Assembly (NCBI GenBank): GCA_028874795.1
Contig: JAPPHT010000007.1
Coordinates: 1 to 46,606 of the forward strand
Direction of reading: 5' to 3'
Source: Chloroflexota bacterium
Lineage (GTDB): Bacteria > Chloroflexota > Dehalococcoidia > Lucifugimonadales > Australimonadaceae
DNA length: 46,606 bases
Shown: positions 19,908 to 44,169 of the stretch, piece by piece
Layout of the letters: each line of letters opens with the position of its first letter
Position numbering within the stretch: the first letter of the stretch is position 1
The notes under the pieces: model-generated
What the model was told of the DNA's origin: nothing
Databases searched by the model: none
What the model saw: only the letters and a program-made list of their open reading frames with translations
Position numbers and translations under genes: made by a program

Positions 19908-22900
19908 ATGCAGTACCGGCTTGGCATAGACCTCGGGACGAACTCCATCGGCTGGTCCGCCGTGCTCCTCGACGAAGAGGGGAAGGCCTGCGGCCTCTTG
20001 GACATGGGCGTCCGCATCTTCCCGGATGGACGTGAGAATTCCAAATCGCTCGACCCGCTGGGCCAATCGCTCGCGGTGAACCGGCGCATCCCGCGCGGTC
20101 AGCGGCGACGGCGCGACCGCTACCTCAGGCGGCGCAGCGAACTGCTGGACACGCTCACCGCCTGCGGACTGATGCCGCCGGACGCCGAATCCCGCGCGCA
20201 AGTAGCCGCGCTTGACCCTTACCCGCTCAGGAAACTCGCACTCGAACAGCAGCTCAGCCCATACGACCTCGGACGCGCGCTCTTCCACCTGAACCAGCGG
20301 CGGGGCTTCAAGTCCAACCGCAAGGCCAGACCGAAAGATGACGAGAAGGAGTCCCGCGAGAATCTGACCAACCTCCGCATCGCCCTCAGAGAGAACGACA
20401 TGCAACTCGGCGAATACCTTGCCGAATTGCACGCTCAAGGGAAACCTGTACGCGCACGCCCCGGCCTTGACCTCTACCCCGACCGCGCCATGTACGAGGC
20501 GGAGTTCGATGCGATCAGGAAGGAGCAAGAGCAACATCACAATCTGCGACCTGATCAGTGGGATTCGCTGAGAGACATCATCTTCTATCAGCGCCCGCTC
20601 AAGCCGGTCGATCCCGGTTGGTGCCTGCTGGAGGAAGGAGAGCGGCGTGCCCCCCGAGCCCTACACTCTGCGCAGGAGTTCCGCATCTTGCAGGAGCTCA
20701 ACAACCTGCGCACTCGGGTGGGCATCGAACCGGAGCGCCCCTTGAACGATGCCGAACGCAGTCGCATGCTCCAGCGCCTGCGAGAGGGTAAAGAAGTCGA
20801 CTTGCAGAAGCCCCCTAAGGGCCTGCGGCTGGACGGCTCGTTGAACCTCTCGCGCGGTGGACGTAAGAAACTCCAAGGGGACCAGACCACCGTGCGCCTG
20901 ACGAAACCGGATCTGTTCGGCGAACGCTGGCTGAGCCTGACACCGGAGGAGCGTGACGCCATAGTCGAGCGCCTGCTCGATACGGAAGACCCGGAAGCCG
21001 TCCGGCAGACGGCGGTCTCCGAATGGGATTTGAGCGAGGCGCAGGCCCAGAAGGTTGCCGAAGTGGTGCTCCCCGACGGTCATCTGCACCTCAGTGCGAA
21101 GGCCATTCGCAAAGTACTCCCGCACTTGCGGGACGGGATGCGGTACGATGAAGCCGTGGTGAAGGCTGGCTACCCACACCACTCCGACTTCCGCAACGCC
21201 GAGGCGCACGACCGTCTCCCATACTACGGCATTGTCCTGCAACGCGACGTCGTAGGCGCAGACCCGAACGCTCCGGAGGCTGACGAGGCGAAGCGCTTCG
21301 GGCGCTTCCCCAACCCCACCGTTCATGTCGGGCTGAACCAACTCCGCCGCGTCGTCAACCGGCTCATCGACGCCTACGGCAAACCAGCGGATATCGTGGT
21401 GGAACTCGCGCGCGACTTGAAATCGAGCAAGGAGCAGCGCGAGGAGTACGTCAGGCGGCAGCGCAGTAACGAGCATGAGAACGACCGCCGCCGGAAAGAG
21501 CTCCAGGAGTGCGGGATCGAGCCCAACGGATACGTGATGGAAAAGCTGCGCCCCTGGGAAGAGCAAGGCCCCGTGCAGGCGCGCCTTTGCCCGTACACCG
21601 GCAGACCCATCTCGTTCGGCATGGCCGTCTCCGATGCGACCGAGATAGATCACGTCCTTCCGAGGCGCACCCTTGACGATTCACTCGCCAACAAGGTCCT
21701 CTGTCTCAGGGAGGTCAACCGCTTCAAGAGCAACCGCTCTCCGCACGAGGCGTTCCACGATAGCCCGTTCGGCTACGACTACGACTCCATCCTCGCTCGC
21801 GCCGAACAACTGCCGGACAACAAGAAATGGCGCTTCCTTCCAGACGCCATGGACCGATTCGCTGACGAGAGCGGCTTCCTCGAACGCCAACTGAACGAGA
21901 CGCGCTACCTATCGCGCACGGCCCGCTCCTACCTCGCGCACCTCTATGACGAGAAGACAGAGGGCAGGTCGTTCGTCCGCGTTATCCTTGGCGGCATGAC
22001 CGCGCGGATCCGGCGCGGGTGGGGCCTGGAAGGGATGCTGCGCGAGAGTGGCGGAGGGAAACAGCGAGACGACCACCGCCACCATGCCATAGACGCCTTC
22101 GTCGCCGCCAACACCACCCAAGGCCTCGTGCAGCGGTTTCAGCAGGCCGCCGGGTCCGTGGAACCGGAGGCAAGGCTGGCTAAACTGCTGGGACGAGAAG
22201 AGCTCAAGCCGTGGCCCGGTTTCGACTGCAGTGAGGTGAAGCCGCTCATCGATCGCATGACCGTGTCCCACAAGCCCGACCACGGCGCACTGGGCGTGGG
22301 CGGTAAGACGACGGGTCAACTGCACAAGGCGACGGCCTACGGGCTGTTGGAGGAGCCCGGCAACGGGCCATCCAGGGTCGTCATCCGCATGAACTTGGCA
22401 GCCGTGGTAAAGCGGGCTGACCTTGCAGCCGTGCGGGACCCCGGCCTGCGAGATGGTCTGCTCGCCCTGTGGGATGCCGTTGAAGCGGAGAAACCGGAAC
22501 TCGACAGGGCCGAGGAGGAATTGGCGCGGCGGGAAGACCGCAGGCCCCAGAAGCAGCCGGTGGGCGCGATCTTTGCCGAACGCGCCGGGGATGAAGAGGT
22601 GGGTGTGAGCGTGAACGGACACATACAGCGCGTCCGGCGCGTGCGTATCGTCGAGGAGCAGAGCGTTGTACCCATCAGGGACAGCACGAGAAAGGCGTAC
22701 AAGGGCTACGTGCGTGGCAGTAACGCCTTCGCCGACGTCTGGAGGACGCCCGACGGCAGTTGGAAGACCGTCGTTGTGCCCACGTTCGAGTTCAACCAGC
22801 AGGATTTCACCATCGAGAACTTCCGCCCAGCCAGCAAAGATGGGCGCCCCGACCCCACGGCGAAACGGCTTATGCGCCTGCACATCGACGACATGGGCGC

Positions 22901-23141
22901 GTTCGGCGAGGGGGCAGACCGGCGCATCGTCCGCGTTCGCAAGATATCTAACTCTGCCACTGGCGCGCTTGTTGTTCTCGATCCTCACAACGAGGCCAAC
23001 GTCGCCGCACGTGCGAGCAACAAGGACGACCCGATAAGGGAGAACAAATACTCTGCCAAACAACTCCGCGAACAGGGTTTCCGGCGGGTAGGCGTGGATG
23101 AGATCGGGCGAGTGCTGGACCCGGGGCCACGCACGGGATGA
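19908..23141 (+). CDS. cas9: Cas9, type II-C CRISPR RNA-guided endonuclease
   Basis: Compact Cas9 of 1077 aa. RuvC-I GIDLGTNSIGW has catalytic D8. An Arg-rich bridge helix (59-76) follows, then the helical recognition lobe (about 80-470). RuvC-II ADIVVELARD carries E499. The HNH domain EIDHVLPRRTLDDSLANKVL has H582 and N595, with N604 downstream. RuvC-III HRHHAIDAF carries H726 and D729. The C-terminal PAM-interacting part includes YKGYVRGSNAFADVWR and FTIENFRPAS. All catalytic residues are present, so the enzyme should be active. The length and a cas9-cas1-cas2 operon without csn2 or cas4 define subtype II-C. The ATG at 19908 follows GAGGAAGGAAG. The stop overlaps the cas1 start (ATGA). A candidate tracrRNA is divergently placed just upstream. 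Confidence 0.97.
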   Translation: MQYRLGIDLGTNSIGWSAVLLDEEGKACGLLDMGVRIFPDGRENSKSLDPLGQSLAVNRRIPRGQRRRRDRYLRRRSELLDTLTACGLMPPDAESRAQVAALDPYPLRKLALEQQLSPYDLGRALFHLNQRRGFKSNRKARPKDDEKESRENLTNLRIALRENDMQLGEYLAELHAQGKPVRARPGLDLYPDRAMYEAEFDAIRKEQEQHHNLRPDQWDSLRDIIFYQRPLKPVDPGWCLLEEGERRAPRALHSAQEFRILQELNNLRTRVGIEPERPLNDAERSRMLQRLREGKEVDLQKPPKGLRLDGSLNLSRGGRKKLQGDQTTVRLTKPDLFGERWLSLTPEERDAIVERLLDTEDPEAVRQTAVSEWDLSEAQAQKVAEVVLPDGHLHLSAKAIRKVLPHLRDGMRYDEAVVKAGYPHHSDFRNAEAHDRLPYYGIVLQRDVVGADPNAPEADEAKRFGRFPNPTVHVGLNQLRRVVNRLIDAYGKPADIVVELARDLKSSKEQREEYVRRQRSNEHENDRRRKELQECGIEPNGYVMEKLRPWEEQGPVQARLCPYTGRPISFGMAVSDATEIDHVLPRRTLDDSLANKVLCLREVNRFKSNRSPHEAFHDSPFGYDYDSILARAEQLPDNKKWRFLPDAMDRFADESGFLERQLNETRYLSRTARSYLAHLYDEKTEGRSFVRVILGGMTARIRRGWGLEGMLRESGGGKQRDDHRHHAIDAFVAANTTQGLVQRFQQAAGSVEPEARLAKLLGREELKPWPGFDCSEVKPLIDRMTVSHKPDHGALGVGGKTTGQLHKATAYGLLEEPGNGPSRVVIRMNLAAVVKRADLAAVRDPGLRDGLLALWDAVEAEKPELDRAEEELARREDRRPQKQPVGAIFAERAGDEEVGVSVNGHIQRVRRVRIVEEQSVVPIRDSTRKAYKGYVRGSNAFADVWRTPDGSWKTVVVPTFEFNQQDFTIENFRPASKDGRPDPTAKRLMRLHIDDMGAFGEGADRRIVRVRKISNSATGALVVLDPHNEANVAARASNKDDPIRENKYSAKQLREQGFRRVGVDEIGRVLDPGPRTG

Positions 23142-24055
23142 TCGGTCGCGTCGTCGAGATTGCGAGCGAGGGGCAGCACCTCTCCCGCCACCGGGGTTTT
23201 CTCTCCGTTCGCAAGGACAGCGAGGAACTGGCGCGCATTCCTCTGGACGACATAGCCGTCCTCCTCTGTAATACTGAGGCGCACGGTCTCACCTACACCA
23301 ACGACCTCTTGGTGGATATGGCCAACCGGGGCATCCCCGCCGTGCTCTGCGGCGCAAACTACCTCCCTGTCGCGTGGCTCTGGCCGGTGGAAGGGCATCA
23401 TGTCCAATCTCTCCGCATGCGCTCCCAGCTGGAAGCATCCCTCCCGCTCCGCAAGCGCCTCTGGCAGGCGCTCGTCAAGGCGAAGATAGCCCAGCAGCAG
23501 AACGTGCTGGACGTTCTTGGCGTCCCTGGCGGAGGGCTCCTGGCGCTCGCCCAGCGCGTCCGGTCTGGCGATCCAGACAACGTGGAAGCGCAGGCGGCGC
23601 GCCGTTACTGGCCGCTCGTCTTTGGTTCCAACTTCCGCCGCGACCGCTCCGCAGGCGGTGCGAACGCTTTTCTGAACTATGGCTATACAGTGCTCAGGGC
23701 AGCGGTGGCCCGCTCCGTTGCCGCCGCCGGTCTCCACCCGTCCATCGGCATCCACCATCACAACCGCGCCAACCCGTTCTGCCTCGTGGACGACCTCATG
23801 GAACCATTCAGGCCGCTGGTGGACTACGCCGTCGTTCGGCTGGCCAAGGCAGGACACCGGGAGATGACTAGCGAGACCAAGCGGGCGCTCGCGGGCGTTC
23901 TCGTGATGGACCTGCGCACTGAACGCGGCACAACACCGCTCCAGACGTGCATTGAGCGCGCGGCGCAGTCGGCCGCACAATCCTACGAATCCTGCAAGCC
24001 CATCTTCACATTTCCCGGCCCGCCCCTCGTAGACTCATCAGGAGACACCGAATGA
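23138..24055 (+). CDS. cas1: Cas1, CRISPR integrase
   Basis: Cas1 of 305 aa, the integrase that, with Cas2, inserts new spacers. Metal-site residues can be assigned to E150 in NVEAQAARRYW, one of H206-H208 in GIHHHNRANPF, and E222 in LVDDLMEPFRP. The N-terminal beta-domain begins MIGRVVEIASEGQHLSRHRGF, typical of type II Cas1. The ATG overlaps the cas9 stop by ATGA, so translation is coupled. All key residues are intact, arguing that acquisition could work if a functional leader remains. The following cas2 starts 12 bases downstream. Confidence 0.97.
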   Translation: MIGRVVEIASEGQHLSRHRGFLSVRKDSEELARIPLDDIAVLLCNTEAHGLTYTNDLLVDMANRGIPAVLCGANYLPVAWLWPVEGHHVQSLRMRSQLEASLPLRKRLWQALVKAKIAQQQNVLDVLGVPGGGLLALAQRVRSGDPDNVEAQAARRYWPLVFGSNFRRDRSAGGANAFLNYGYTVLRAAVARSVAAAGLHPSIGIHHHNRANPFCLVDDLMEPFRPLVDYAVVRLAKAGHREMTSETKRALAGVLVMDLRTERGTTPLQTCIERAAQSAAQSYESCKPIFTFPGPPLVDSSGDTE

Positions 24056-24067
24056 GGAACGCCGCCT

Positions 24068-24394
24068 GTGCTTTCGGGGTACCGCCTCATGTGGATGATG
24101 GTGATTTTCGACCTGCCCGTCTTGACGAAACCGCAGCGGCGGGCGGCCAACAAGTTTCGCCAGTTCCTGCTGGATCAGGGCTTCGGTATGTGCCAACTGT
24201 CGGTCTACATGCGCTTCTGTGGCGGCAAGGAGCAAGCCGAGGTCTACACCCGCCGGGTGCAGTCTGCCCTGCCCCGCGCGGGAAACGTGCAGATCCTCTA
24301 CTTCACTGATAAGCAGTACGAGAACATCGTCAGCTTCAACGGACCGGTGCGTCGCCCGCCTAACAGAAATCCGCAGCAGTACGCGCTCTTCTGA
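24068..24394 (+). CDS. cas2: Cas2, CRISPR adaptation protein
   Basis: Cas2 of 108 aa with the expected first strand and loop, MWMMVIFDLPVLTKPQRRAA, containing the conserved Asp, and the second strand MCQLSVYMRFC. The C-terminal half (NVQILYFTDKQYENI) is typical of type II-C Cas2. The GTG at 24068 has GAGGA at about 24052-24056. A later in-frame ATG at Met8 is possible. It ends 72 bases before the first CRISPR repeat. Confidence 0.93.
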   Translation: MLSGYRLMWMMVIFDLPVLTKPQRRAANKFRQFLLDQGFGMCQLSVYMRFCGGKEQAEVYTRRVQSALPRAGNVQILYFTDKQYENIVSFNGPVRRPPNRNPQQYALF

Positions 24395-24466
24395 CCCGGC
24401 AGCCCCGCTTTTGCCGCTCCCTGCGCTGGCCTCGCCAGCCTCATTATGGGCTGGACGGGCCGACGC

Positions 24467-25469
24467 AGTTTATTCGATGGGAGATCGGGGAGGAACCGCA
24501 ACTGCCGTGCTATGCGATTGTCGTGCGGGACCAGTTTATTCGATGGGAGATCGGGGAGGAACCGCAACTAGTGCCACCGGTGCACACGCTCTCGCGCAAG
24601 TTTATTCGATGGGAGATCGGGGAGGAACCGCAACATGCTCGCGCTGGTAGCAGCGCTGGCAGAGAGTTTATCCGATGGGAGATCGGGGAGGAACCGCAAC
24701 GTGACAGGAGCGTGGTTCATGTTCCTGCCGAGTTTATCCGATGGGAGATCGGGGAGGAACCGCAACAGGATGTTCTGGAAGGCGACGATGAGCGTCAGTT
24801 TATCCGATGGGAGATCGGGGAGGAACCGCAACACCGTATCTTCCGGATCGTGTCCCTGGTAGTTTATCCGATGGGAGATCGGGGGGGAACCGCAACTGGG
24901 AGTACCCGCCGCATCGGCTACCGGCAAAGTTTATCCGATGGGAGATCGGGGAGGAACCGCAACTCGAATGGCCGGGGTTGCGACCGGCCTCCCAGTTTAT
25001 CCGATGGGAGATCGGGGAGGAACCGCAACGAGAAGTACGGCGCATGGCGCACGTATCGGAGTTTATCCGATGGGAGATCGGGGAGGAACCGCAACATGGA
25101 GCCGGTGCTTTCGCTTGCGCGCCGAGTTTATCCGATGGGAGATCGGGGAGGAACCGCAACTACCGATAGAGCAGCTGCCCATCCAAGAGAGTTTATCCGA
25201 TGGGAGATCGGGGAGGAACCGCAACGGCAAGACGTCGTACGTGGCCTGCACCTAGTTTATCCGATGGGAGATCGGGGAGGAACCGCAACGCGAGGTAGCC
25301 CCGTGAGCACCGCGGCCGAAGTTTATCCGATGGGAGATCGGGGAGGAACCGCAACCAGCATCTCCGTATGCAGGTGCGGGCGGTAGTTTATCCGATGGGA
25401 GATCGGGGAGGAACCGCAACCGCAGGAGGCGGACATCACGATCGAGGTCGAGTTTATCCGATGGGAGAT
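24467..25469 (-). CRISPR. type II-C CRISPR array, 15 full repeats, 15 spacers, one truncated repeat
   Basis: Repeats are 36 bp, beginning AGTTTATCCGATGGG and ending GGGGAGGAACCGCAAC on the plus strand. Full copies start at 24467, 24533, 24599, 24665, 24731, 24797, 24861, 24928, 24994, 25060, 25125, 25190, 25254, 25320 and 25385. A 19-base copy occupies 25451-25469. Spacers are 28-31 bases, mostly 30, all different. The first three repeats have TATTCG where the others have TATCCG; the seventh has GGGGGGGAAC instead of GGGGAGGAAC. The tracrRNA antirepeat fits crRNA made from the minus strand, where the repeat starts GTTGCGG and ends GATAAACT. No AT-rich leader is seen on either side; the left flank (24395-24466) is GC-rich and holds the hairpin GCTGGC-CTC-GCCAGC. 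Confidence 0.95.
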
Positions 25470-26098
25470 TAGGTACGTCTGAACCTCTCCATTACTTGGG
25501 GCACTTGGATATTGCCCCAGCATGTTTGGGACAGTAGCGAACCCTGATGCTGGAATGCTCCGTGGATGGTCTTAATCCCTCTGGTACTGAGGAACTCTAC
25601 CACCGGGACAAAGTCGCGATCTGACGAGAGCAGGACCGCTACATCATAATTGTCCACCCAGGCCAACTTGATCATGTCGGTCGCGATGCGGGTGTCTACG
25701 CCCTTTTCTTCGGTGCCCCTTATGTCTGATTGGCACTTCGGGCAACTAGAAATCTCTTCATGGCACGACGGGCAGACTGGACCTCGCTTCTTACGCTGTC
25801 GCGGGAGCATTGTGACCTGTACCCCGGCGAATCTATTCAGAGTGTTCAAGGCCCATTTGAGGAGACCCTCGTCCTTCTTGCTGGCAGCGTCATATGAGCC
25901 GTATACATTCATGCCTTGGTAGGCAACCGATGCTGCTGCGTCTACTATTCTCAGAGACTCCTGTGCCAGCACTAATCCCATCGATTGCCAGTCGACTTTG
26001 AATCCCGGAGCTACATTGTTCATCAGTAGCTGGAAGTTCCAGAAGTCGACAAACACCTTCACGCGGACTCTGTGCTCTGTATTCAGGTCAGTTGACAT
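25469..26098 (-). CDS. NYN/PIN-like (LabA/DUF88) ribonuclease-type protein with zinc ribbon insert
   Basis: Protein of 209 aa with the NYN nuclease fold. The first acidic site is in VFVDFWNF (D18, N21), then D135 and D141 in GVDTRIATDMI, and D160/D162 in LLSSDRDFVPVVEFL. A four-cysteine ribbon, CPSC (109-112) and CPKC (119-122), is inserted in the middle. NYN proteins cleave RNA, so an RNase role is likely. The ATG at 26098 has GGAGGG about 11 bases upstream; the open frame extends further but through a hairpin terminator. The gene converges on the CRISPR array: its stop codon (25471-25469) uses the last base of the truncated terminal repeat. It could be a defence gene, a toxin-like RNase or an unrelated neighbour. 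Confidence 0.85.
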   Translation of the reverse strand: MSTDLNTEHRVRVKVFVDFWNFQLLMNNVAPGFKVDWQSMGLVLAQESLRIVDAAASVAYQGMNVYGSYDAASKKDEGLLKWALNTLNRFAGVQVTMLPRQRKKRGPVCPSCHEEISSCPKCQSDIRGTEEKGVDTRIATDMIKLAWVDNYDVAVLLSSDRDFVPVVEFLSTRGIKTIHGAFQHQGSLLSQTCWGNIQVPQVMERFRRT

Positions 26099-26145: not shown

Positions 26146-26260
26146 GGGTCGTAGTAACCGAGTACCATTGCTCCCATAACTGTTGGGTGGCGGCTCGGTG
26201 GATTCTAATGAAGCCAGTATGAAGAGCAAGGAGGTGTTCTGTCAACCCCCCCCCCGGCTT

Positions 26261-26310
26261 GTTGCGTAAAGCCCACTTGTTGCAAAAGTCCCGATTCTGT
26301 TGCAAGAGTC
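26261..26310. repeat. tandem TTGTTGC motifs, IS-end-like
   Basis: Three direct copies: CTTGTTGCGTAAAGCCC, CTTGTTGCAAAAGTCCC and CTGTTGCAAGAGTC. The first resembles an inverted-orientation copy near 27125 (GGCCTTGTTGCGTAAATC on the minus strand). Such ends are like those of IS5-family elements as I remember them. No transposase is present. Confidence 0.5.
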
Positions 26311-26787: not shown

Positions 26788-27095
26788 ATGACGACCAAGC
26801 GACAGCCTACGCGCGCGTAAGGACGCCGGTGAACTCTACTCACCGCTACCTCGCGGGCAACGCCCTCGTCTGTGGTGACAAACTCGACATCCTGAGGGAG
26901 TTGCCCGACGAGTGCATCTACCTCGACCCTCCCTTCAATTCCGATTACAACTACGTGCTGAAGTCGAAGTTCGGGGACGTGATTCGGGCGAAGACGCCGG
27001 TGGTGCAGGTGAACGAGACGCTGATGAAGGTGCTCTGCCACAACATCGTAGTGCTCGGCCCGACTTTTGCAACAGAAAGGGCGCTTGTTGCATAA
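26788..27095 (+). pseudogene. DNA methyltransferase (N4/N6 type) remnant
   Basis: N-terminal fragment of a DNA adenine or cytosine-N4 methyltransferase, recognised by YLDPPFNSDYNY (motif IV DPPF) after the lead-in NALVCGDKLDILRELPDE. Three lesions are visible. The natural ATG at 26788, with GGAG upstream, leads into a stop after ten codons (MTTKRQPTRA), while the body of the gene is in another frame, so there is a frameshift near 26815. Two residues are missing before YLDPPF compared with the usual LIYLDPPF spacing. The gene is cut at about 27066-27084, where TTGTTGC inverted repeats begin, and nothing of the target-recognition part follows. It was probably once part of a phage or restriction-type system. 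Confidence 0.7.
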
Positions 27096-27127
27096 ATCGG
27101 CCTGAGAGGGGATTTACGCAACAAGGC
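27084..27127. mobile_element. miniature inverted-repeat element (fused IS ends)
   Basis: CTTGTTGCATAAATC (27084-27098) and GATTTACGCAACAAG (27111-27125) form a 15-bp inverted repeat with one mismatch around a 12-base centre; GGCC lies at the outer right end. This looks like two transposon ends joined after loss of the transposase. It terminates the methyltransferase fragment. Confidence 0.55.
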
Positions 27128-27263
27128 CACCCCCCTCCACGATTCGAATCAGCCTGTGCAAGATGACACCAATGCCAGAGCGACGGGCAGGGCGATGAGG
27201 TGGACATCACGCCCCCTGTGCTCGGAAGCTTCCTCGCCCGAGCATCTGCACGAGGAACGGCTA

Positions 27264-27629
27264 TCAGGGGCAGGGAATGGACCCGTCCTGGATACCTTGC
27301 CACCGCAGGCTGAGCCAGTCGTCGTAGGATCTGTTCTGCCGTTCGATAAGCATCTCTCTGATGAGCGGTTCGGCTTCGAGGCTGTAGGCGTATGGCCCCA
27401 TAATGTCGGCGAGCATGTCGCGCGTCTCTTCGAAAGACATAGTGCGTTCGTAGTCGTAGACGCTGCGGAGGAAGACGTCATGGTAATCGGCGAACTCTTC
27501 GAGCGTTGCGGTGTAGCAGTTGGGCGGAAGCGGTGTTGCCGTAGGCTCTGGCGTAGGTGTTGGTGTAGGTGGTGCGCAAGCCCCGATAGTGAGTAAGAGC
27601 GCCGCGAGTAGGTAGTGGCCCAGTTTGAA
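27264..27629 (-). CDS. small lipoprotein, start codon unclear
   Basis: Open frame of 121 codons after a stop, with no ATG, GTG or TTG at its head. It reads LGHYLLAALLLTIGAC, a lipoprotein signal with the lipidated cysteine in the lipobox IGAC, then a Thr/Pro linker (APPTPTPTPEPTATPLPP), then a domain of about 85 residues beginning NCYTATLEEFADYHDVFLRS and ending in GSIPCP, with a cysteine near each end. The best start is CTG at 27623, or the start has been lost. The upstream HTH gene is in the same frame and ends in the TAA just before it, so the two could be a split fusion. The function is unknown. The lipobox plus linker, shared with other lipoproteins here, makes a real or recently broken gene likely. 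Confidence 0.5.
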   Translation of the reverse strand, partial: FKLGHYLLAALLLTIGACAPPTPTPTPEPTATPLPPNCYTATLEEFADYHDVFLRSVYDYERTMSFEETRDMLADIMGPYAYSLEAEPLIREMLIERQNRSYDDWLSLRWQGIQDGSIPCP

Positions 27630-27833
27630 TTACCGGCGAGAGAGGAGCATCCGCCAGGTCAGCTCCCCGCTCTCCATGCACGCGGCGACCGTCCGGTGGT
27701 CGATCCCCAGCACCCGCCCCGCACCCCGCTGTCCGTTCTCACGCACGAGGTCGTGCAGCAGCGCCATGAGGCGGAGGCCGTGAAGGCTCTCCACTGAATT
27801 GCTCCGCTCGATGACCGTCTCATCCGGTTCCAT
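27630..27833 (-). CDS. small helix-turn-helix protein
   Basis: Protein of 67 aa. Residues LHDLVRENGQRGAGRVLGIDHRTVAACM look like a helix-turn-helix of the Fis/resolvase C-terminal type (two helices around RVLGIDHRTV). The ATG at 27833 has GGGGAGG at 27839-27845. A perfect 13-base dyad GTACAACTTGTAC (27846-27858) lies directly upstream of the ribosome site and may be its operator. A lipoprotein-like frame follows immediately after the TAA stop. It is likely a DNA-binding regulator; a remnant of a recombinase C-terminus is the alternative. Confidence 0.6.
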   Translation of the reverse strand: MEPDETVIERSNSVESLHGLRLMALLHDLVRENGQRGAGRVLGIDHRTVAACMESGELTWRMLLSRR

Positions 27834-27845
27834 GATGTCCTCCCC

Positions 27846-29760
27846 GTACAACTTGTACCAATCACTCGGGGCCGATGTTCGCGACCTCGTTCACCGCCGT
27901 GGTGCAACTTGCACCAATCACTCGGGGCCGATGCACCAGCACCGTGGAAGCTGCTGTGGACGGAAAGTGTTGCCTGGTTACGTGAGGCGTGCCCCGTCCT
28001 GTAGGCCACGGCCTTGCCCACGACTCCGTGCTCTCTCTCCGACATTCCTCATTCTTCTGTACACGTCCATCACACCACGGGAAGCCTGCGGACCACCATG
28101 CGCCATAACGGGTGTCATGCGCGACACTGCCCAGGAGTGGATGAGGTCCGTCCAAGGGAAACCCGGCATCTTCGTCGAGCAGGTCCCCGGTGTCATGGCC
28201 ATCGTCATCGTGGGCCCTGCCCCTCGGCCGCCGCCCTGACATGGCGTCGGTGATCGCAGCCCGTCGGCCTTCCCGGAAGCGTTGACGCCATCGATTCCGG
28301 GGAGTCAGCCGGCGCCCTCCGGCGGTCCCACCTGCCCCTCTGCAAGCTTGCACTTCTCACTCGTGGGCCTTGCACAGACCCCTCGATCCAGGGCTCTGCA
28401 AACTTGCTGTTTCCACTCGTAGGCCTTGCAGTCGACCGTGCATTGAGTCCCGAACGCGAAGTATTGCCTGATCACGTGACGCATCACCCGTCCTGTAGGC
28501 GGCGGCCTTGCCCACGACTCCGTCTCCCTTCTCCGACATTCCTCCATCTCATGTACGGGTACATCACACCACGGGAAGCCTGCAGACCGCCGTGCGCCAT
28601 AACGGGGGGCGCGCACGGCTCTCCCAGGAGTGGCTGAGGTCTGCCCATGGCGTGTTCCGTGCTCTCGTCCAGCAGGTCTCCGGCAGCCTGTTCATCCCCG
28701 TCGTCGTTGGCCTTGGTCCCCGAGCACCCGACGGCCCCAGGCGGATCGTGTTCGCCGCACCCAGTCTCCGCGATTGTTGCCGACAATCTCTACGAGAGGC
28801 CCGACAATCCTCGCCTTTCACTCGGCGATTGTTCTCGACAACATTCACGAGAGGCTCAGCAATCTCGGAGTAGCAGGAGCCCTGGAACCGAAGTGCTCGC
28901 AGATAACCAGCGCTATGCCCCGTCCGATAGGCCACGGCCTTGCCCACGACGCGGTTGCTCACGGATCACCAACCGCTGATCCTTGTACACGGGTGTAGCG
29001 TCAGGACGGGCGTTGCTCGCCGCGCCCTCCGGGGAGGCCCGTTTTCGAGCCCGCCGCGTGAGAATCCGCCGCCCGGTTCCGCTTCGCTGTCCGGCCTCGT
29101 GTCCGTCGTTTGGGCTACCTCATCAAAGGGGATGATCGGCCCGTCGGCGTGTCTGTGGACGAGGCAGCCCATGCGTCCGTCGTCGAGCCGGACCACGGCC
29201 ATGATCCCATTGCACTCATCGTCGGGTTGCCGGTCGCCACCATGCCGAGCAGCACCACCAGTGCGCGCACATCGTCCATGACGAGGTTTCCGCCCACGTC
29301 ACACGTACCGCCAAGCCCGCAGTCATCGTCACACGAGCGGGTCCGTCCATAGCAGTGCTCCGCCCCAGCGCGCGGTCCCGCCCACGCTCCCGGCATCGGC
29401 CCGCAGAACGCGTTGGAAGAGGTGCTCCCTCACGAGCTCAGCCATGCCCAGCGCGTCGCCAACCCCGCGCCGACGTGACACGTCACAGCCCCCATTCCGG
29501 CCTCCGTATGGCCTCCCCAAAGTTCGCCCTCACCTTGCATCGTCCCTGTGCCAACTTGTCATCGCCACTCGTAGCACTTGTCATCAGCCCGGTCATCGCA
29601 ACTGCAAGACATGCAATCGTCAGGAGTGGCCCCTGCAATCCGGCTTGCCGCAGCGGGTAAACCCAAACTGTTGACTGCGTCGCTCCCCGCGCAGGCGCGC
29701 AATCCCATAGCGGCCTTGCCCACGACCCAGTCGGCCCCTTCCCTACCAACTCTCGTTCTC
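27846..29760. repeat. gene-poor field of degenerate repeated units with unit-specific dyads
   Basis: No gene is convincing here. A 15-base core GGCCTTGCCCACGAC recurs at 28010, 28504, 28936 and 29712. Around the first two, about 250 bases are clearly duplicated (27967-28215 and 28466-28715; shared words CATCACACCACGGGAAGCC and ATGCGCCATAACGG in near-identical form). Before each core sits a cluster of short palindromes with a cluster-specific sequence: GTACAACTTGTAC (27846) and GGTGCAACTTGCACC (27901), both followed by AATCACTCGGGGCCGATG; TGCAAGCTTGCA (28341), followed by CACTCGTGGGCC; GATTGTTGCCGACAATC (28772); and a direct repeat ACTTGTCATC (29554, 29576) around CACTCGTAG. The function is unknown. 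Confidence 0.6.
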
Positions 29761-29842
29761 TGTACTACCCCCGCACTCCGACCACCCGTTTGCCGTGCGG
29801 GCTAAACCGCGGGAGACCCCGCTCTGGCTGATACGTCAGCAG

Positions 29843-29941
29843 CCGGATGAGCGACACGCGGCCCTTGCCCGATGCCGCCGACGGGTCAGAGCCTGATGGA
29901 TGGCGCATCATCGACGGCGATGGACGGGAACGAGTCCGATA
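29843..29941. repeat. 99-bp dispersed repeat, copy 1
   Basis: From CCGGATGAGCGACACG to GAGTCCGATA. It matches 36643-36741 along its length with scattered substitutions and one compensated indel. It is probably a remnant of a duplicated gene or element; neither copy lies in an intact gene. Confidence 0.6.
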
Positions 29942-30093
29942 AGTGTGGAGATAGAGGCCGCTGACACGAGTGATGCGGGGCGCCGGACATTGGCGAAGCC
30001 CCGACGGGATGGTTCTCGCACCAGCCGGAGGTCTCTGGTAGTGTTGGGCGTGAGCCATTGGAGGCTCGTCGTACCTCAGCATGAGGAGGATAC

Positions 30094-30432
30094 GTGGAGG
30101 TCACAACCGCACGGGAAGGCGCGCATCTGATCGTGGGCGTGGATGGGCGCGTGGATGGGGTGAGCGCCCCGGAGTTCCAGGCAGCCATTGAGGGCGCCAT
30201 CCAGCCGAGCGATCAGGCCGTTATCGTGGACATGGGCGGGGTGCAGTTCATCGCCAGCGCCGGCCTCCGGGTCTTGCTCGTGGTGGGCAGGTTACTGCAG
30301 AAGCAGAACGCCAAGCTGGTGGCCTGCTCGCTTTCGGAACGGCTCCGCGAGGTGTTCACCATCAGCGGGTTCTCCAGCATCGTGCCGCTCTACGATTCCC
30401 GTGCGGATGCCCTGCAGGCGCTCAACGACTGA
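30094..30432 (+). CDS. STAS-domain anti-sigma factor antagonist
   Basis: Protein of 112 aa that is a single STAS domain, like SpoIIAA/RsbV. The core motif DMGGVQFIASAGLRVLL contains the predicted phosphorylated serine S55. Such proteins release a sigma factor or another partner by binding an anti-sigma kinase, and are controlled by phosphorylation of this serine. The start is GTG at 30094 with AGGAGGA at 30083-30089. No kinase/anti-sigma (RsbW-type) or phosphatase gene is nearby, so the partner is encoded elsewhere. The gene is compact and appears intact, with decayed sequence on both sides. Confidence 0.92.
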   Translation: MEVTTAREGAHLIVGVDGRVDGVSAPEFQAAIEGAIQPSDQAVIVDMGGVQFIASAGLRVLLVVGRLLQKQNAKLVACSLSERLREVFTISGFSSIVPLYDSRADALQALND

Positions 30433-30769
30433 CAGTCCGGAGTGGCACCGTCAGTCAATGAAGGAGACGGGTGGCTGCCATGCCCCGCTCGGGGAATGTG
30501 AGCGTCCATGGAGCCTGCCGAGGTGAACGCCATCGCGGATTTCGTGGATCAGGGGAGTGTGAGGGATGAAGTACGTTGCCCTGTTGCCGGGGGCCTCTAC
30601 CGCAGCTGAGGAATCTGGGGTTGGCGCTGAATGATGTCCGCTACGAGTTGAGTCCCGCGCTCGCGCAGGCGATGGAGGAGAACGGGCGCCCCGTGGAACA
30701 GCCCTGGCTGCAGTGAGCGGCGTAGCTTGCGCACGGGAGTCTGCCTCTGGCCGGGCGGGTCGAGGCCGT
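30433..30769. other. gene-free stretch with possible small gene remnant
   Basis: No intact gene. Two short frames suggest a frameshifted remnant: MKYVALLPGASTAAE from about 30567, preceded by GGGAGTGTGAGGG, and [20 protein letters not shown] running to the stop at 30714-30716. They join if one base is shifted near 30610. The evidence is weak. Confidence 0.3.
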
Positions 30770-36887: not shown

Positions 36888-37220
36888 TCAACTGGCGATA
36901 CCCCTCTGCGAAGAGGCCTGTCCCGCCGGGGCGGTCTTGCGGGGCCTGCCGTGACGACGGCCCTCCCGCGCCCAGAAGTAGACGTAGACGGCATTCCCGG
37001 AGCGGCGGACCTCCAGGCTCCTGCCCAGCAACTCCGCCGCCGCGCTCAGCCTGCGTCGGACCGCTTGGGTTGTCTCTCCCTCACCGGCGGTCAGCATGCC
37101 CGCTTCCCCGGGGCCGATCCGCTGGATGTAGCCGATGTATTCCCCCAGCACCAACGCGCGCTTCTCGTTCGCGATGCTTGCGCGCGCCTCGCTGGCCATG
37201 ACGACGCTGAACATGGGCAT
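36888..37220 (-). CDS. small AT-hook DNA-binding protein
   Basis: Protein of 110 aa. The N-terminal half (LGEYIGYIQRIGPGEAGMLT) and middle (RRRLSAAAELLGRSLEVRRS, then VYVYFW) form a compact alpha/beta unit. The C-terminus has GRRHGRPRK, an AT-hook-like basic motif, and then a short Gln/Ser tail. The ATG at 37220 has GGGAGGTG upstream; ten residues of alternative starts precede it. A paralogue lies at 43876-44169 and a decayed third copy at about 42660-42744. The family is not one I can name. DNA binding through the minor groove is likely from the AT-hook; a regulatory or nucleoid role is inference. Confidence 0.7.
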   Translation of the reverse strand: MPMFSVVMASEARASIANEKRALVLGEYIGYIQRIGPGEAGMLTAGEGETTQAVRRRLSAAAELLGRSLEVRRSGNAVYVYFWAREGRRHGRPRKTAPAGQASSQRGIAS

Positions 37221-37344
37221 CCCCGTCACCTCCCGATGGTAAGTGAAGACTCTATCAGCACAGGCCGCCCTCCCGCCCGCACGTCGGTGTTCTTCGCGAC
37301 CCACGCCCGTGCGTTGAACGCCAGCGTCGCGTATCGTTCCTCCG

Positions 37345-43875: not shown

Positions 43876-44169
43876 CTACGTGACCGGGTTCTTGCGCGGC
43901 CTACCTCGGCGACGTCCGTCCGACGACCAGAAGTAGACCGCTGTGGCCGTGCGGCGGAACTCCAGCTTCCTCCCCAGAGCCTCCGCAGCCGCGTTCAGCC
44001 TGCGCCGGATCGCCTGCGTCGTCTCGCCCTCTCCAGCCTCCAGCTTCCCCGCCTCGCCGGGCGCCACGCGCTTGATGTAGCCGACGTACTCCTGCAGCAG
44101 CGCCGCGCGCTTGCCGGTCGCGCTCCTAGCGCGGGCCTCACCGATCGAAAGTGTGCTGAACGTGGGCAA
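43876..44169 (-). CDS. small AT-hook DNA-binding protein
   Basis: Protein of 97 aa, paralogue of 36888-37220. It shares LLQEYVGYIKRVAPGEAGKL, the block AGEGETTQAIRRRLNAAAE, the strand LEFRRTATAVYFW, and a C-terminal GRRRGRPRKNP AT-hook. The start is TTG at 44169, with GGAGAGGTGAAGG upstream. It is divergent from the ECF sigma factor gene 180 bases away. It is likely a small DNA-binding regulator; the target is unknown. Confidence 0.7.
   Translation of the reverse strand: MPTFSTLSIGEARARSATGKRAALLQEYVGYIKRVAPGEAGKLEAGEGETTQAIRRRLNAAAEALGRKLEFRRTATAVYFWSSDGRRRGRPRKNPVT

Follow-up and report, generated by a model that had tools for sequence, protein, structure and literature searches.

The minus strand of the window (i.e. 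the whole 46,606-nucleotide stretch of Chloroflexota DNA analysed here) carries four units in the same direction between positions 27630 and 29726 (units A to D), each consisting of a 15-base core (GTCGTGGGCAAGGCC) followed by two putative operators (Table 1). The units are defined by direct repeats (D1, D3, D4, D5 and D7), and the core is present as an exact copy at four positions, in agreement with the first-pass annotation, which had described four units sharing such a core. A search of the 3.33-Mb host genome yielded seven exact copies, of which four are located in the window and three at related modules (C47, C63 and C81), so that the exact core is confined to modules. Three further sites with one mismatch were found, among them the C76 module, while a reversed-pattern control returned four sites with at most one mismatch.

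In the direction of the gene, each operator follows the same plan, in which a half-site word (X1) is followed by a constant stretch containing a CACGAGTG-like word, a second copy (X2), a short loop and an inverted copy (X'). A constant CACTCG word beside unit-specific dyads, as previously annotated, is retained in units A and B (followed by GGGCC, TGGGCC or TAGGCC), and is altered in unit C (ACGAGAGGCC) and unit D (CACTCGTAGCAC and GGAGTGGCCCC). The half-sites of unit B read TGCAA or AGCAA. When the region was scanned for the pattern X-22-X-n-X' repeated at 55-57 bp (maximum score 25), unit A (27846-27936) scored 23, unit B (28341-28430) scored 22 and unit D (29547-29638) scored 19. Shuffled versions of the region contained a mean of 0.055 matches scoring at least 19, with a maximum of 2 (200 shuffles), and unit D is therefore considered weak, decayed although still recognisable. 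Unit C (28766-28864) represents a 77% repeat (D5) and was missed by the scan because the X-to-X distance of one of its two operators (28766-28809 in Table 1) is 21 rather than 22.

Table 1. Features of the array, with positions in the window
Feature	Position	Strand	Basis
HTH stub gene, 67 aa; recognition region GIDHRTVAACMESGELTWR	27630..27833	-	Profile match 27648-27812, E 1.4e-15; translation
Unit A gene-proximal operator: X1 GAACA, X2 GTACA, X' GTACA inverted	27846..27880	-	Scan; locus L001
Unit A distal operator: X1, X2 and X' GTGCA; 56 bp from proximal	27902..27936	-	Scan
Unit A leader; core at 28010-28024	27960..28131	-	Direct repeat D1; core search
Unit B proximal operator, X = TGCAA(G)	28341..28374	-	Scan
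Unit B distal operator, X = TGCAA(G); 56-bp period	28397..28430	-	Scan
Unit B leader, 80% identity to unit A leader; core at 28504-28518	28454..28625	-	Direct repeat D1; core search
Unit C operator, X = (A)TTGTC; X-to-X 21, one base short	28766..28809	-	D5; read from sequence
Unit C second operator, X = TTGTC	28821..28864	-	D5; read from sequence
Unit C core	28936..28950	-	Core search
Unit D operator, X = ATGACA, inverted arm decayed	29547..29583	-	Scan
Unit D operator, X = ATTGCA; 55-bp period	29602..29638	-	Scan
Unit D core	29712..29726	-	Core search

Unit A is the only one of the four that is followed by a regulator gene, and the gene-proximal dyad, which had been placed at the start of a small HTH gene, ends 12 bases before its ATG (27833). 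The encoded protein corresponds to the N-terminal piece of a protein of ~290 aa, and is missing both the predicted coiled coil and the C-terminal domain that full-length members of the family carry. As the window retains this single stub, the array is mostly regulator-less, and no transfer genes were observed in the window. A stretch of ~1.5 kb that includes part of the array (28467-29937) is 86% identical to a sequence in a different species of the same genus; there, the setting differs and the flanks do not match.

Several other features were observed in or around the array. The small peptides of two units resemble each other (47% over 36), and the small conserved peptide beside the units did not align when considered as the tail of a T4SS-side gene. 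Module leaders (e.g. L004 ~1490-1525 and L014 ~1765-1797) contain a near-perfect palindrome of ~30 bases (ATAACGGG...CCCGTTAT), the inner arms of which vary between modules yet remain paired; by eye, the window units keep half of it. Imperfect inverted repeats with TTGCAA words at 26258-26310 and 27062-27125, ~750 bases apart and with small ORFs between them, are possibly the ends of a small mobile insertion. A stretch of ~290 bases occurs twice in the window (36935-37233 and 43886-44168, 72% alike), with further copies downstream of a regulator gene in locus L117 (72% and 87%) and at several places in L106. Furthermore, a CRISPR-Cas locus at 19908-25470 comprises a Cas9-like gene (1077 aa; Pfam RuvC_III, HNH_4 and Cas9_a), Cas1 and a CRISPR array (24468-25420) with 15 repeats by pattern match and spacers of 29-32 bases. 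None of its 14 spacers matched the compared modules, and one 14-base partial match was found elsewhere.

The regulator family and its conjugation-gene neighbours

DNA searches of the host genome and of the same genus identified related modules, which precede a gene for a regulator of ~290 aa in which an HTH is followed by predicted coiled-coil-type helices and by a helical C-terminal domain that is conserved and ends in LTLGxWWE. The suggestion in the first-pass annotation that the units are decayed regulator modules is thus supported, as intact relatives of the units lie upstream of full-length HTH regulator genes in the same and in other genomes. Within the host genome, modules C76 and C63 precede full-length HTH genes, while the C81 and C47 genes are each split into two frames. 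This arrangement was also seen in another species, with the TTGTC-class genes (L004 and L005, i.e. host C81 and C47, and L066) consisting of two overlapping frames near profile positions 98-129, a pattern that may reflect either decay common to both species or a programmed frameshift. The window is not alone in having modules in tandem: a 6.6-kb SAR202 bin16 contig, from a species of the genus other than the one with the 86% copy, encodes two full-length regulators that follow each other (L107 and L115, with words GGACAG and TGCAAG); judging from sequence, the window array looks like a further-decayed array of this type.

A family profile search returned matches in 46 of 197 related genomes, with at least 12 matches in several of them. 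In a sample of 400 genomes taken from the whole phylum, 16 had the family. The named relatives that carry the family (12 loci) are SAR202, Dehalococcoidia and other Chloroflexi MAGs, and the family is multicopy in SAR202-like/Dehalococcoidia Chloroflexota. None of the 271 pattern stretches in a viral collection encodes a relative. Pfam did not assign an HTH family; two full-length proteins and the stub from the window were compared with the KfrA N-terminal model, and none of them matched it up to an E-value of 1. No NCBIfam model reached its curated score (best E 0.0037, excisionase), and PHROGs gave no clear match (best E 0.02 for a MerR-like and 0.054 for an excisionase profile).

Structure predictions using AF2 showed a confident HTH region, long helices and a helical C-terminal domain. 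The helices over residues 21-70 were predicted with a pLDDT of about 87-92, consistent with an N-terminal HTH, and those over residues 58-94 and 99-138 with moderate confidence. Profile matches to the PDB (E 0.01-0.7) were mostly to long-helix proteins and covered the stretch of these latter helices. Lambda CII is known to read direct TTGC repeats, and Foldseek reported matches to lambda CII and N15 Cro (E 0.86 and 2.0, respectively), which resemble the family in having a compact helical HTH that reads short half-sites; however, these matches are weak and neither protein has a coiled coil and C-terminal domain like those of the family.

The regulator gene of C81 is divergent from an operon encoding TrbL/VirB6, PrgI and a TrwB-like coupling protein (Pfam TrbL, PrgI and TrwB_AAD_bind), together with a protein that narrowly misses Replic_Relax (25.1 bits; cut-off 25.3) and VirB2- and VirB4-like products identified by eye from the translation. 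Among the 78 distinct upstream regions of the family, 36 had at least 900 bases to examine. The divergent neighbour was a T4SS-side start gene in 15 and a coupling-protein gene or operon in three of these 36, with none on the same strand. Transfer genes were therefore divergent next door in 18 testable loci, with no integrase or whole element delimited, and the remaining 18 had no recognised adjacent transfer gene.

Repressors of conjugative elements and their immunity groups, such as the SetR and ImmR types, come with an element-specific operator near transfer or excision genes. The present family would share this arrangement, but differs in having no Pfam HTH family match, and we know of no SetR- or ImmR-type system in which many half-sites are rewritten within one fixed scaffold across paralogues. 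The nearest described analogue found is KfrA of plasmid RA3, which, according to its published description (PMC7783346), is a strong autorepressor of a conjugative plasmid with an HTH and a helical tail, and binds an operator of five 9-nt repeats, three in one orientation and two in the other. Both have an HTH head, followed in KfrA by a long helical tail and in the family by a predicted one, and both have an operator of several short direct and inverted repeats just upstream of the regulator gene, which in the family amounts to six half-sites. KfrA is carried by conjugative elements, and the regulators of the family are often divergent from conjugation genes. In contrast to KfrA, the family lacks a Pfam KfrA match and carries an additional C-terminal domain, which is helical and conserved. 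Its half-sites are set in a rigid 22/56-bp scaffold and separated by a constant word, a transfer operon runs divergently from the gene, and paralogues are numerous within a genome and differ in their words. By analogy, the family would work like KfrA, but it is not classed as KfrA.

Scaffold geometry and covariation of the word with the recognition helix

Upstream regions of the relatives were scanned with an X-to-X distance of 22 and periods of 55-57 or 66-68 (maximum score 25, strict cut-off of at least 20). Twenty of the 78 regions reached the cut-off, compared with none of 780 shuffles, although the test was not blind as the 22/56 geometry had first been noticed by eye on scanned loci. An X-to-X offset of 22 was found in 20 loci and an offset of 21 or 23 in none, while the operator period was 56 in 18 loci, 57 in one, 67 (one more turn) in two and 55 in none. 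Chance or plain decay would leave the dyads without meaning, and genome searches that show random decay alone were named by the first-pass annotation as an outcome that would refute it; the imperfection of units C and D fits this reading, but the shuffle result and the confinement of the core to modules leave it with negligible credence.

The remaining regions of the order fell below the strict cut-off, many with clear dyads in other arrangements and some with none. Dyad scans with free spacing placed 19 of 78 regions above the 95th percentile of the null (null 1.3%), and were weaker than the fixed-geometry scan, picking false dyads. In a blind extension to other orders and classes, none of 20 upstream regions scored 20 or more. 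Five loci that do not belong to the window's genus have a third dyad, spelled in the word of the locus itself, at 107-108 bp further upstream, and this dyad is missing in the genus; in the corresponding test, the own word matched at 9/10 or better in 7 of 22 loci, against 36 of 384 trials with other words. A GTGTACA(G) motif opens most leaders in several families and classes (e.g. L003 1516, L088 451 and L144 193), and in many loci outside the window's genus the operator-word dyad starts, by eye, ~21-23 bases after it; our guess is that this motif is a promoter element.

The tandem, same-direction units could also mark sites of recombination or attachment, or be pieces of a single transposon; recombination sites had been among the options named in the first-pass annotation, but this reading gained no support here. 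Part of the array is found in a different setting in a related species, and another copy (L008) is located where a contig begins, with an apparent transposase gene (by eye) ~350 bases away. However, the units themselves showed neither a transposase nor an integrase, and the sites precede one regulator gene family across the order with differing words, which makes a single transposon or recombinase a very unlikely source.

The 20 loci that passed the cut-off carry the words GGACA, TTGCA, TGCAAG, GTTCC, GTGCA/GTACA and TTGTC. Exact TTGTC-type operators occur in the host genome only at the two module copies (control 0). Operator distance was correlated with recognition-region distance among 18 distinct helices from intact genes (Mantel r 0.58); the partial correlation given C-terminal distance was 0.46 (p 0.0002), while that of the C-terminus given the helix was 0.004 (p 0.48). 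For this set, the word tracks the recognition helix, and the C-terminus adds nothing after the helix has been accounted for, in support of the proposal of diversified operators in the first-pass annotation. A correlation was also obtained with 21 helices (r 0.52, p 0.0002) and, after thinning of near relatives, with 13 divergent helices (r 0.33, p 0.005), whereas in strict subsets (score of at least 20; n=17 and n=14) a C-terminal signal persisted after removal of the helix (r 0.22 and 0.25, p 0.03); these three analyses, but not the 18-helix one, included the broken genes L001 and L005, which had improper C-terminal sequence. L121 was dropped by hand from all of these runs, loci without a recognised helix were also left out, and the statistics treat loci as exchangeable, except for the C-terminal control.

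Much of the covariation signal is carried by helix positions 11 (D/N/S), 13 (R/K), 17, 20 and 21, and position 2, which lies outside the recognition region, also scores. Prediction of the word from the nearest trained helix, with six word classes assigned to the training loci by hand, was enriched among 39 held-out helices of the order (p 0.009), with a modest effect, and was not significant outside the order (n=15, p 0.13). Together with the absence of the geometry from the 20 regions of other orders and classes, this indicates that either the scaffold belongs to the order or distant forms need another alignment.

These data also bear on the possibility that the units act as RNA elements, such as leader hairpins or attenuators, with the dyads as stems. 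Short hairpins and a conserved leader run do occur upstream of the genes. However, the consensus fold of 22 aligned leaders gave only three pairs (-1.81 kcal/mol), and Rfam returned nothing above the gathering score for 27000-30500, with one sub-threshold mir-74 match. As the direct copy X1 keeps a phase of exactly 22 bp, and a DNA-binding helix is what the word follows, we consider an RNA role to be highly improbable.

Putative control of conjugation modules

Taken as a whole, the units probably represent control regions of conjugation-gene modules that have decayed in the window, with operators that share a scaffold and differ in their word. Each unit would be the divergent control region of one module. 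The N-terminal HTH of a coiled-coil regulator is predicted to bind six half-sites just upstream of its own gene, arranged as two operators with a 56-bp spacing, each of which combines a pair of direct half-sites, 22 bp (approximately two helical turns) apart, with one inverted half-site. The regulator most likely acts as a repressor, both of its own gene and of the transfer operon that is divergent from it. Since the half-site word and the recognition helix appear to change together, we infer that co-resident modules in one genome do not cross-regulate. The regulators would thus most likely be self-regulating, mutually insulated repressors of conjugation modules, decayed at this locus. Within the window, at least four modules, with the words GTGCA/GTACA, TGCAAG, TTGTC and a decayed fourth, may have accumulated head to tail and subsequently lost their genes, except for the one HTH stub.

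The regulator-less array may instead have been kept as a functional decoy or sensing array that soaks up the regulators of resident or incoming conjugative modules. By eye, units A, B and C use words similar to those of the host's living modules, i.e. GTGCA (C63), TGCAAG (C76) and TTGTC (C81/C47), but these words are common in the genus. Likewise, units C-D persist in the 86% copy in another species, but its flanks are unlike those of the window and it may simply have moved with mobile DNA. With exact spacing and dyad symmetry also lost in units C and D, retention as a decoy appears unlikely. A similarly doubtful, broader proposal is that the family constitutes a natural set of multi-paralogue orthogonal regulators with one rigid six-half-site scaffold and a swappable, helix-read word; at its extreme, the window array would be a retained multi-word decoy that allows the host to titrate the regulators of several conjugative modules.

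On the preferred reading, in which the units are decayed control regions of conjugation modules, the family amounts to a natural table of paired regulators and operators, with scaffold and spacing constant and the word alone varying. The rules by which an HTH reads its site, and those that insulate co-resident mobile elements from one another, would therefore be directly testable. Among the papers listed in literature searches on SAR202 or sponge Chloroflexi conjugation, none treated this regulation, and the family may provide a handle on the regulation of conjugation modules in SAR202-like Chloroflexota.
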